IMG/VR virus record: IMGVR_UViG_3300049433_000125
Location: 1-22,816 of that record
Source of the DNA: a virus
Length of the DNA: 22,816 bases
Direction: 5' to 3' (one strand)
Under the pieces are notes generated by a model. That model did not search any database, was not told where the DNA came from, and saw only the letters and a list, made by a program, of their open reading frames with translations. Shown piece after piece: positions 181-12,883 of the stretch; position 1 is the stretch's first letter; each line of letters starts with the position of its first letter. The translations under genes were made by a program, and so were the position numbers.

Positions 181-453
181 ATGGCTACCCCCAAGAATGC
201 GATTGCCAAATGGCTGCGCCTCGCGACCCCGGACAATGCCCGCGAGCTGGCGAAAGCAGCTGATACCTCGGTCCCCCATCTGCGCCATATCGCCGCCGGC
301 CGGCGCAGCGTATCGGCAGAACTTGCCCAGCGATTAGCGCATGCTAGCGAAACGCTAAAAGTCAAAGCGCTGCGCTTGGATCAGCGCTTGCTGTGCAAGG
401 CATGCGGGGCGTGTCCGATCGTGGATAAGCGCAAGTCGAAGATTGCCGCCTAG
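181..453 (+). CDS. Small HTH transcriptional regulator with C-terminal Cys cluster
   Basis: The 90-residue protein has a lambda-Cro/YdaS-like helix-turn-helix at about residues 18-56 (NARELAKAADTSVPHLRHIA followed by a Gly-Arg-Arg turn and a SAELAQRL helix). It ends in a basic tail carrying C72-x2-C75-x2-C78, which could bind metal. Proteins of this kind are early regulators that bind operators as dimers; a target close by, such as the inverted repeat at 1-28, is an inference. The ATG is chosen for its clear Shine-Dalgarno. It is first in the + strand operon and is followed after 9 bp by the PAPS-reductase-like gene. GC of its first line is about 62%, against 40% in a sampled line of the next gene. 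Activator versus repressor cannot be told. Confidence 0.75.
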   Translation: MATPKNAIAKWLRLATPDNARELAKAADTSVPHLRHIAAGRRSVSAELAQRLAHASETLKVKALRLDQRLLCKACGACPIVDKRKSKIAA

Positions 454-462
454 CTGCGATTC

Positions 463-1110
463 ATGGGCCGAAACACCGTTTGGTTTTCTTGTGGTGCCGC
501 ATCCGCCGTTACCGCTAAGTTAGCGCCAGCGGATGCAACTGGCAAGCCAATTGCTATTATAGGCTCTAAGAGATACGTAACTGTAGACGACGTATTTGAA
601 AGCACCCGCTATATGAGCGGAGTAAAAGGCGCCCGCTGCACTGTCGAAATGAAGAAAGTACCACGTTTTGCATTTCAACAGCCCGACGATACCCATTTGT
701 TTGGGTTAACAGCTGACGAAGGGAAACGCATTGAACGGTTTGAAGCAAACAATCCAGAGCTTAAGCTACGTTGGCTATTGCGTGATTCCGGCATCACTAA
801 AAACGATTGCTATGAAATCATTAAAGGGGCCGGAATCGCGCTACCTGTAATGTACAGTAAGGGATTTAAGAACAATAATTGCAAAGGCTGCGTAAAAGCA
901 ACTTCCCCCGCGTACTGGGGGTTGACCAGAAAACATTTTCCTGAAACCTTTACGCTTCGCGCTATTCAAAGCCGTACGCTAGGGGTCAGGCTGTGCCGCT
1001 ACAAAGGGGAACGTATTTACCTCGATGAGCTGCCGATGGCTATCGACGACCAAACCCCGCAAGAGGATATCGAATGCGGTCCAATCTGTATTAATGAAGC
1101 GGTAAGCTAG
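463..1110 (+). CDS. PAPS reductase-like (adenine nucleotide alpha-hydrolase superfamily) protein, apparently missing a core segment
   Basis: The 215-residue protein has the family's modified PP-loop near the N-terminus (VWFSCGAASAV, about residues 6-16), then GARCTVEMKK, FGLTADEGKR, RDSGI, the Cys pair NNNCKGCVKA, and LDELP...DIECG at the end. This is the order of phage proteins annotated as phosphoadenosine phosphosulfate reductase; such enzymes bind adenylated substrates, and relatives include DndC. From memory, homologues have some 30-35 residues between the PP-loop helix and the segment aligning with KPIAIIGSKRYVTVDDVF, holding the second beta strand and a D-N-x-R-F-L helix. Here only a few residues lie between them. 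The gene is AT-rich (40% GC in one counted line). No clear Shine-Dalgarno precedes the ATG, so translation may be coupled. Substrate unknown; activity uncertain. Confidence 0.8.
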   Translation: MGRNTVWFSCGAASAVTAKLAPADATGKPIAIIGSKRYVTVDDVFESTRYMSGVKGARCTVEMKKVPRFAFQQPDDTHLFGLTADEGKRIERFEANNPELKLRWLLRDSGITKNDCYEIIKGAGIALPVMYSKGFKNNNCKGCVKATSPAYWGLTRKHFPETFTLRAIQSRTLGVRLCRYKGERIYLDELPMAIDDQTPQEDIECGPICINEAVS

Positions 1111-1111
1111 G

Positions 1112-3328
1112 GTGGGACCATTCCAGGAATACGTTCAAGCCGGCTGGGCTCTGTGCATTATACCGCGAGGGTCGAAGAACCCCGGCTATGAACGCTGGAA
1201 CGAACGGCCGATCGACCTAGAGACAGCCGCCGGCATCGATGGCGCCGGCTTGCTTCATGTCCAGAGCCAAACCTGCGCGCTCGATATTGACAATCTACCG
1301 GCAGCCCGGCTGTGGCTAGCCGAGCGAAACGTCGATATCGATGCTTTGTTAGACGCTGAAGATGCTATTAGGATCACTTCAGGCCGTCCAGGACGGGCGA
1401 AGCTCTTATATCGCCTGAAGACTCCGCTCCAGACGTTTAAACCGCCAGGGAGCGGCCTGGAGCTGCGCTGCGCTAACCTGCAAGGCCGTTCCTTGCAAGA
1501 TGTCCTACCCCCGTCGATTCATCCTGACACCAAGAAGCCGTACGAATGGCTTTACGCCGAGCCCTTGTTGGGGGATTGGGGCCGGCTCCCTGCGATCCCC
1601 GCGACCTTAAAGGCAGCCTGGCGCGCGCTAATTGATGAAGCGCCGCCAGCAACCAACGGACACGCCACGGAGCCGGTCGATATCGCCTTGGAGAAACTCC
1701 ATAAATGGATTGTGGACCAAGATCCCAACATGGAGTACGACCGCTGGTATAAGGTTGGCGCCAAACTGCACCACGCCACAGGCGGCGCGGAGGAGGGGCT
1801 GGCAATCTGGGATAGCTGGAGCGCGAAAGCTAGCCGCAAGGATAAATACTCCCGCCCAGTCTACAAAGGAATCGAGGATTGCCGGCCCCATTGGCTATCG
1901 TTCTCCAGCCCGCCAGGTAAGGTAGTCGCAACCCTAGATAACGAACTGCCGGCCGAAGCGGACGAATTTGAAGTAGTCACGCCAACCCCAGCGGAAGCGG
2001 CTGCTAGCGCTGAAACCGAAAGCAATAAACGGGCGGAAGTCAAGCAACTAAAACAAGATGCAATTGCGCAGCTTGAAAAGCGTGTGGTGTATGTGCTGGC
2101 GTCCGAAAAATATTTCGACACCGCGCGCCATCAATTGATCGGCAGCGATTCAGCCTTGGAGCATCAATTCACCGCCATGATGCCGCGTGTCAAAGGCAAA
2201 CGTCTTAACCCAGTCGTGATACTCAAGCAAAGCACTACAAAGCGAATGATTGACGGCCTTGGGTTCCACCCAGGAGAAGGGCCGCTATTCACAGTAGGTG
2301 ATGACACGTTTGCGAATTTGTACCGTAATAGACTGCCGGAGCCGCTGGAGCCGACTAAAGAAGAACACGAAAAAATTGAATGGATATTTGCCCGTATCGA
2401 TGATGAAAATTATCGGACGTGGCTCAAGCAGTATTTTGCGCATGTAGTACAAAAGCCGGCTGTCAAAATTAAAACAGCACCTCTTATATGGTCGGAGACT
2501 GAACGTAACGGCAAAAGCACCCTACTCAAGAGCATTCCGGCGTTGTTGGTAGGGCGTGAATTCTCAAAAGATGTTGGCTATGACACTCTCAATAGTAGTT
2601 TTAACGACTACTTGCAAGGTGCCTGGCATATTAATTTGGTAGAGTTTAGAGCCGGTACGCGTGGGGAGCGCGCCATGATAAATCACAAACTCAAAGCTTA
2701 CATAGCGGATGATACGATTCAATTGCATCCAAAAGGAAGCCGCGCGTACGAAATGCCTAATCACTTTTTCGTAACCGCTTCAAGCAATGAAGAGGATGCA
2801 GCGGCAATCAATAATAATGACCAGCGATGGGGCATACATGAAATGAAAATGCCAGAATATACTGAAAGTGAACGCCAATGGATTTACCATAGTTTCCTAC
2901 TTAAGCCCCGCGCGGCTGCCGTATTGCGCCATTATTTTCTGCACATTGACTTGAAAGGATTTCACGCGGCGGGAATCCCGCCAATGACGGAAGCAAAACG
3001 TGAGATGGCAGCAGCATCGATGCCGATAGATGTAGAAATACTGTTAAGGCTGTTTGAGGAGCGATCCGAATTTTTTGCAAGGGATGTTGTGTTAACGAGC
3101 GATGTAGTCGCCTATGTGCAGCGAACTTTACGTTTTACTTCGGCTACGCGCATTGGCAGGGTACTAGCGAAGGCGCCATTTAATGGCGTCGCCAAAAAAT
3201 TACGCGTAAAAGACAGCTTTTACAGAGTGATAGTGATTCGCAACCACCAAAAATGGGACGCGCTCCCCCACACTAAAATAATGGAACATATTACAGGGGG
3301 TGATGATGATATTGACATCATGAGTTAG
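1112..3328 (+). CDS. Prim-pol primase fused to SF3 (D5-like) helicase
   Basis: This 738-residue protein would prime and unwind DNA at phage forks. Residues about 1-155 form an archaeo-eukaryotic prim-pol domain: catalytic D58-I-D60, S136-I-H137 and an LPPSIHP...PYEW signature. About 190-265 resemble the PriCT-2 primase C-terminal domain. An acidic linker holds the motif D284-E-F-E. The helicase, about 400-630, has a Walker A-like WSETERNGKST (K468; the first Gly of the usual motif is replaced, as I recall for relatives), Walker B LVE511F, and the sensor TASSN559. The C-terminus looks like a winged-helix tail. The start is GTG one base after the upstream stop; the prim-pol fold begins at once, so no earlier start is needed. 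GC falls from about 62% in the primase to about 40-42% in helicase lines. Confidence 0.9.
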   Translation: MGPFQEYVQAGWALCIIPRGSKNPGYERWNERPIDLETAAGIDGAGLLHVQSQTCALDIDNLPAARLWLAERNVDIDALLDAEDAIRITSGRPGRAKLLYRLKTPLQTFKPPGSGLELRCANLQGRSLQDVLPPSIHPDTKKPYEWLYAEPLLGDWGRLPAIPATLKAAWRALIDEAPPATNGHATEPVDIALEKLHKWIVDQDPNMEYDRWYKVGAKLHHATGGAEEGLAIWDSWSAKASRKDKYSRPVYKGIEDCRPHWLSFSSPPGKVVATLDNELPAEADEFEVVTPTPAEAAASAETESNKRAEVKQLKQDAIAQLEKRVVYVLASEKYFDTARHQLIGSDSALEHQFTAMMPRVKGKRLNPVVILKQSTTKRMIDGLGFHPGEGPLFTVGDDTFANLYRNRLPEPLEPTKEEHEKIEWIFARIDDENYRTWLKQYFAHVVQKPAVKIKTAPLIWSETERNGKSTLLKSIPALLVGREFSKDVGYDTLNSSFNDYLQGAWHINLVEFRAGTRGERAMINHKLKAYIADDTIQLHPKGSRAYEMPNHFFVTASSNEEDAAAINNNDQRWGIHEMKMPEYTESERQWIYHSFLLKPRAAAVLRHYFLHIDLKGFHAAGIPPMTEAKREMAAASMPIDVEILLRLFEERSEFFARDVVLTSDVVAYVQRTLRFTSATRIGRVLAKAPFNGVAKKLRVKDSFYRVIVIRNHQKWDALPHTKIMEHITGGDDDIDIMS

Positions 3329-12138: not shown

Positions 12139-12332
12139 CGACTGACGAGCAAGGCCGTACCTATAAAAACGGCATGCTTCAAACCAGTACTGCCGGCTCT
12201 CCAGGAGTCAGCGGAGCGATCAAAGACGCTATCGCGGCGCTATCGAAGTCCTTTGCACCTCGGTCGATCGTACAGCGTCCCCAGCGCCTTCAAGGGCAGA
12301 TTGATGCCAACAGCTTAGGGGATCAGTTCTAA
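12123..12332 (+). CDS. 69-aa hypothetical protein
   Basis: The ATG lies inside the end of the zinc-finger gene with gggaagg about 9 nt upstream. The protein begins with a Q-V-T-T-D-E-Q-G-R-T-Y-K-N-G-M strand-turn pattern, has a Ser/Ala helix (GAIKDAIAALSKSF), and ends SLGDQF. A near-identical ending, PLGDHF, occurs in the small protein two genes on. The stop shares one base with the methyltransferase ATG (TAATG). Function unknown. Confidence 0.6.
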   Translation: MADQVTTDEQGRTYKNGMLQTSTAGSPGVSGAIKDAIAALSKSFAPRSIVQRPQRLQGQIDANSLGDQF

Positions 12333-12334
12333 TG
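12318..12334 (+). repeat. Left copy of short direct repeat around the methyltransferase region
   Basis: ggggatcagttctaatg here and ggggatcacttctgaatg at 13036-13053 differ by one substitution and one inserted base. Both span the last codons and stop of a small gene and run into an ATG. The copies bracket the methyltransferase and the DUF3008-like gene. Confidence 0.6.
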
Positions 12335-12883
12335 GATTTCGAATGGCACTTTCGCCATCATACCGGCCGACGCGTTGACAAATGGCGGCACTATTTCGAG
12401 ATTTACGATCGGCACTTTGAACGCTTCCGCGGCAAGCGAATCCGCGTACTTGAGATAGGAATAGATCACGGCGGCTCCATTCAGTTGTGGAAGACGTATT
12501 TCGGTATGGACGCGCACATTGTTGGTTTGGACATTGATCCGCGCTGCGCTGCCTTCGCCGAAGAGCAAATCGAAGTTCGGATCGGCAATCAGGCGGATGT
12601 TGCGCTGCTCAAATCCTTAGGGACGTTCGATATCGTGATTGATGACGGATCGCACCGGCTGCAGGACCAACTAGCCAGCTATGAGGCGCTGTGGCCGGTA
12701 ACCAAGGGGGTCTACTTGATCGAGGACTGCCATTATGAAATCCCCGACCTGCGCCTCTCTGAGCTGACCTATACCTATCCGTGGGTGGTGGTCGCCGAGA
12801 AGCCGCAACGGTTGATTCGTGGCCTAGATTCGCGCGAGTTGCGGCCGGATGAGATTCAAGCAGAGGTGTACCGATGCCTATAG
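12332..12883 (+). CDS. Class I SAM-dependent methyltransferase, MycE/TylF-like
   Basis: The 183-residue protein is a compact Rossmann methyltransferase. Motif I is LE41IGIDHGGS, the acidic ribose contact is GLDIDP, then GNQAD, I-D104-D-G-S-H-x-x-x-D-Q, and YLIE131-D132-C-H. The D-D-G-S-H and E-D pairs match the metal-binding acidic residues of MycE-type sugar O-methyltransferases, which act on hydroxyls of macrolide sugars. In a phage the target could be a sugar on lipopolysaccharide, capsule or a modified base; this is not shown by the sequence. The N-terminal [14 protein letters not shown] segment is also typical. The gene is tightly coupled to both neighbours but is the only metabolic-type gene at this end of the operon. 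Confidence 0.82.

Follow-up and report, generated by a model that had tools for sequence, protein, structure and literature searches.

A PAPS-reductase-like cargo gene in the replication module of a phage that lacks a core strand-loop-helix unit: a probable recent deletion

The ORF at positions 463 to 1110 of the window, the whole stretch of 22,816 nucleotides analyzed here, codes for a PAPS-reductase-like PP-loop protein that lacks about 28 residues of its core. Most likely this is no new type of protein, only one disabled copy of a cargo gene that the phage can do without. We assign a probability of about 0.6 to the reading that this dispensable, horizontally acquired gene underwent a recent in-frame deletion that destroyed its usual chemistry. 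The features discussed are compiled in Table 1.

Table 1. Features of ORF 463-1110 and its surroundings (window positions).
Feature	Position	Strand	Basis
HTH (Cro/CI-like) gene, left border of cargo slot	181..453	+	PF01381
PAPS-reductase-like PP-loop ORF, 215 aa, internal loss of ~28 residues	463..1110	+	phrog_424 E 7.7e-23; PDB 21fy_C E 2.3e-41
Kept: strand 1, PP-loop SCGAAS, shortened first helix	478..522	+	invariant W7 F8 S9 C10 G11 S14 A15; model
Imperfect palindrome / hairpin across junction; 8-bp arms 499-506 and 529-536, inner palindrome 513-525	499..536	.	
Deletion junction, codons A-P-A-D-A-T in place of about 84 nt that encode strand 2, the EH.DN.RF motif and helix 2 in relatives	523..540	+	alignments
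Kept: strand-3 sequence KPIAIIGSKRY, motifs CTVEMKK, NNNCKGCVK, DELP, ECGPIC	541..1107	+	conservation count
Primase/helicase gene (Prim-Pol, PriCT_2, DUF5906), right border of cargo slot	1112..3328	+	domain matches

Results

Family assignment and conserved residues

The PP-loop SCGAAS occupies residues 9-14 of the protein. The profile phrog_424, annotated as phosphoadenosine phosphosulfate reductase, matches only from residue 34 onwards (profile positions 198-414, E 7.7e-23). The closest solved relative is chain C of PDB 21fy, named PptA, with an E-value of 2.3e-41 that becomes 5.6e-93 with the family profile. The PP-loop pattern F-S-C-G-x-x-S is complete, its residues F8, S9, C10, G11 and S14 being invariant in 50 sequences, and the family cysteines C59, C116, C140, C143, C205 and C209 are all present. 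The idea that S-C-G in place of S-G-G marks a decayed PP-loop was discarded, as S-C-G is invariant and normal in this family.

The preliminary description had stated that the PP-loop and all later family motifs are present, and this is borne out by 44 of the 45 positions outside the gap that are conserved in at least 90% of the family. The one exception is A17T, immediately ahead of the junction. A tree built on the shared columns groups the window protein with L009 and L010 (support 0.69). Its evolutionary rate is not raised: the root-to-tip distance ranks 36 of 87, and the branch measures 0.41, compared with 0.295 and 0.354 for its closest relatives. It deviates at 3 of 87 clade-conserved positions, at the low end of a clade whose other members deviate at 0 to 12. 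Such conservation, together with an ordinary rate outside the gap, means that the deletion is young, that the remainder is still selected, or that the deletion is not real.

Extent and rarity of the internal gap

Sequence alignment confirms the loss of core elements that had been noticed beforehand: about 28 residues are gone, comprising the second strand, the YC-D..EH-DN-RF motif and the second helix. One clean gap parts the end of helix 1 from KPIAIIGSKRY, and the family consensus veVvYCdvgeEHPDNlRFlkDCEkW is absent from the window protein. The gap takes 9 of the 54 near-invariant positions (at least 90% conserved), namely Y, C, E, H, D, N, R, F and W; the E and the F are invariant in 100 of 100 relatives. 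In an alignment of 101 sequences the window protein has a single internal gap of 28 columns within the core, the next largest in any member being 5. The spacing between FSCG of the PP-loop and CT..K is 51 residues in the window protein versus 74-83 in 156 distinct relatives, which were gathered from viral contigs, genome contigs and phage records. No diverged form of the strand was seen there, nor did homologues of the short length prove to be the norm of the family.

The preliminary description had reasoned that one clean gap recurring across many related phages would speak for a stable variant subfamily. The gap occurs in none of the 156 distinct relatives, so the searched data hold no such subfamily, and by sequence comparison the short form is a singleton among them. 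When DNA was scanned for the two motifs as a pattern, short spacing yielded one match, a false one, and normal spacing at least 120 contigs; the exact 35-mer spanning the junction is absent from the other viral contigs searched. L103, a candidate second member with short spacing, was rejected as a glycine-rich ORF read in another frame. Relocation of the missing segment elsewhere in the window was also rejected, the best profile E-value being 0.9. An antisense resemblance to that segment at 591-526 (E 0.07, uncorrected) is attributed to chance, given the firm alignment of the sense strand at this place with strand 3.

Near the match at 5001-5195 of L102, a genome contig of an Emcibacteraceae MAG, lies a 104-aa PAPS-like ORF that joins the PP-loop to the C-terminal part. 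This loss is much larger than, and different from, the gap in the window.

Predicted structure

The alignment used for structure prediction contained no row from annotated phage records. In the predicted structure of L009, a full-length protein, a strand (29-34) and a helix (43-55) stand between helix 1 and the strand at 59-62, at the site of the gap. The AlphaFold2 model of the window protein (pLDDT 90) has no equivalent of either one, begins with a strand at 4-6 and a shortened first helix at 12-20, and no longer assigns the KPIAIIG stretch (strand 3) as a strand. The pLDDT of 90 is no proof of folding because AlphaFold2 leans on the family alignment. Fold comparison with PP-loop enzymes gives a best Z of 12.6 for L009 (to 7rge), falling to 7.5 for the window protein (to 2goy). 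PDB 21fy is not among the fold-search matches, from a structure library that ends in April 2026.

The nucleotide pocket of PAPS reductases is lined by the end of strand 2, which in CysH is the "DTG..PET" stretch. In the family of ORF 463-1110, part of the usual pocket would likewise be contributed by strand 2 with its loop, and we infer that the protein has therefore lost its normal activity, be it ATP pyrophosphatase, sulfonucleotide reduction or sulfur transfer.

The junction

The junction is spanned by a hairpin, GCATCCGC...GCGGATGC around an inner palindrome, whose right arm encodes A-D-A, three residues that correspond to nothing clear in the relatives. Of all 42-base folds in the gene, this hairpin is the most stable (z -3.1 versus shuffled sequences), but folding of equal strength is seen here in several relatives. 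Since the window has a perfect 8-bp inverted repeat about every kilobase, the hairpin is weak evidence; it gives a hint, no more, of replication slippage, template switching or a fault of assembly. No direct repeats of at least 5 nt were found around the junction.

Another inverted repeat, perfect and with 12-bp arms (TCAAACCATTTG-CTGC-CAAATGGTTTGA), occupies positions 1-28 at the contig start. It is absent from all other loci fetched, and the assembly may have stopped inside it.

An exchangeable slot in the replication module

The genes around ORF 463-1110 encode an HTH protein, a Prim-Pol/DUF5906 primase, a DUF2800 protein, an Enc34-type ssDNA-binding protein, PolA and an SNF2 helicase, and are all open and normal. 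The gene had been placed at the head of the operon, which is wrong because the HTH gene precedes it in the run. Nor is its base composition, described earlier as AT-rich, distinctive: its G+C content is about 48%, and part of the neighboring primase gene is similar.

The primase, which is 67% identical to its counterpart in the contig of L010, retrieved no close relatives when used as a probe of viral contigs. A polA search succeeded and led to related phages that are 76-89% identical in polA and have the same gene order as the window. Four of them (L226, L229, L232 and L235) have an empty slot, the HTH gene being followed by the primase gene within a few dozen bases, and in L227 the slot (about 1809-2220) holds an endonuclease VII gene (PF02945, E 5.9e-16). 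In the window the PAPS-like gene fills the junction between HTH and primase genes, with borders at 453-463 and 1110-1112. A homologue is found in only one of 20 related records, the syntenic relative G002, where it is full length, 64% identical and located beside the SNF2 gene, about 10 kb away. As the slot is variously empty or occupied by endonuclease VII or by the PAPS-like gene, the latter is horizontally exchanged, optional cargo of the replication module and not a core replication gene of the phage. The slot thus shows a PAPS-reductase-like gene being swapped in and out of the module, one that can be lost; and since phages of this group can do without it, a simple loss of function would be easy to tolerate.

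Discussion

Origin of the short form

We give preference to a scenario in which a PAPS-reductase-like / SspD-like PP-loop gene, carried as optional cargo of the replication module, has lost in frame about 28 codons for the second strand, the YC-D..EH-DN-RF loop and the second helix. A replication slip at the hairpin 499-536 is a possible cause, and the phage would tolerate the deletion because the gene is dispensable. The lesion is probably recent, as nothing else in the gene has decayed. Several observations oppose a recent lesion. The in-frame loss, with ends that coincide with the end of helix 1 and the start of strand 3, is what a viable trimmed protein would show; the intact residues elsewhere also fit continued use; the protein is still modeled by AlphaFold2 at pLDDT 90, with strand 3 unassigned; and the deletion is known from one contig only. 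That last point speaks also for an error of assembly or amplification, by which ~84 nt would have been dropped at a hairpin or through the joining of reads from two strains. Such an error, which we regard as unlikely, is further suggested by the start of the record just 462 bases upstream of the gene, by the perfect 12-bp inverted repeat in the first 28 bases where the assembly stops, followed by a second hairpin across the junction, by the junction 35-mer unmatched in other viral contigs and by the intact state of the remaining family residues. The preserved frame (a one in three chance), the match of the break to structural boundaries and the open, normal flanking genes argue against it, and inverted repeats as frequent as those of 8 bp in the window make the junction hairpin weak evidence for an artefact.

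The removal of one whole strand-loop-helix unit from a protein that evolves at no great speed and keeps all its other motifs could also reflect repurposing. Strand 3 would then take the place of strand 2 beside strand 1 in a smaller sheet, and the mini-protein would still bind a nucleotide or, through C140, C143, C205 and C209, a metal cluster, acting as a regulator, decoy or dominant-negative partner. We consider this improbable, given that the short form is seen in none of 156 relatives, that two family-invariant residues sat in the removed loop, that strand 3 is not placed as a strand in the model and that the gene is optional in the phage group. The part of the preliminary description that saw a loss-of-core variant kept in frame holds, and its proposal of a neofunctionalised nucleotide-binding protein or a decoy finds no support, no relative sharing the gap. 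Slightly less probable still is a protein that remains folded and useful without the core unit and without nucleotide chemistry, be it a metal-cluster or DNA-binding regulator, or a dominant-negative partner of a host sulfur-modification enzyme. An old pseudogene long free of selection would account for the loss of a core unit from dispensable cargo; 215 open codons, 44 of 45 near-invariant positions kept and only 3 of 87 clade-conserved positions changed show too little decay for it, so that an old relic is mostly refuted and very improbable. The evidence taken together favors a recent loss-of-function deletion over an assembly artefact, and the latter over a repurposed mini-protein. As a single deletion copy the short gene would be of little consequence. 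Should the short form be stable and used, it would represent a rare removal of a core strand from an ancient nucleotide-binding fold with function kept.

Comparison with related PP-loop proteins

CysH PAPS/APS reductases (PF01507; PDB 7rge, 2goy and 1sur) share the PP-loop enzyme fold with the full-length L009 protein at Z 11-12.6, whereas the window protein reaches only Z 7.5. PF01507 does not match the window protein even at an E-value of 10, and scores 22.1 bits against full-length L009, just under its curated cut-off of 22.5.

SspD and DndC are PP-loop proteins of DNA phosphorothioation. The PADLOC model of SspD matches L009 with an E-value of 5.2e-10 over residues 6-195. Its match to the window protein (3.6e-6) covers only residues 55-164 and leaves the PP-loop outside. 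No Ssp or Dnd partners were found among ten other window proteins scanned; the record is about half as long as the related contigs, and partners may lie elsewhere. The phrog_424 family, including L009 (2992-3741), combines a match to the SspD model with a solved structure, 21fy "PptA". Elsewhere in the window, at 12332-12883, a class I methyltransferase-like ORF matches the defence-system model mad2 (E 3.5e-8).

The nearest likeness is to phrog_424 (L009, L010, Tunturi_2 gp58 and the PptA of PDB 21fy). Over aligned positions the window protein is 66% identical to L009, 64% to L010 and 55% to Tunturi_2, and every motif on either side of the gap is common to both. The genomic surroundings are similar as well, some members adjoining DUF2800, polA, VRR-type and SNF2 genes, whose order varies. 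Family members have about 240-250 residues, compared with 215 in the window protein, which is devoid of strand 2, the EH.DN.RF motif and helix 2. As strand 2, the EH.DN.RF...W signature and the 74-83 spacing are those of the full-length proteins alone, ORF 463-1110 is classified as a deletion variant of phrog_424 and not as a regular member.
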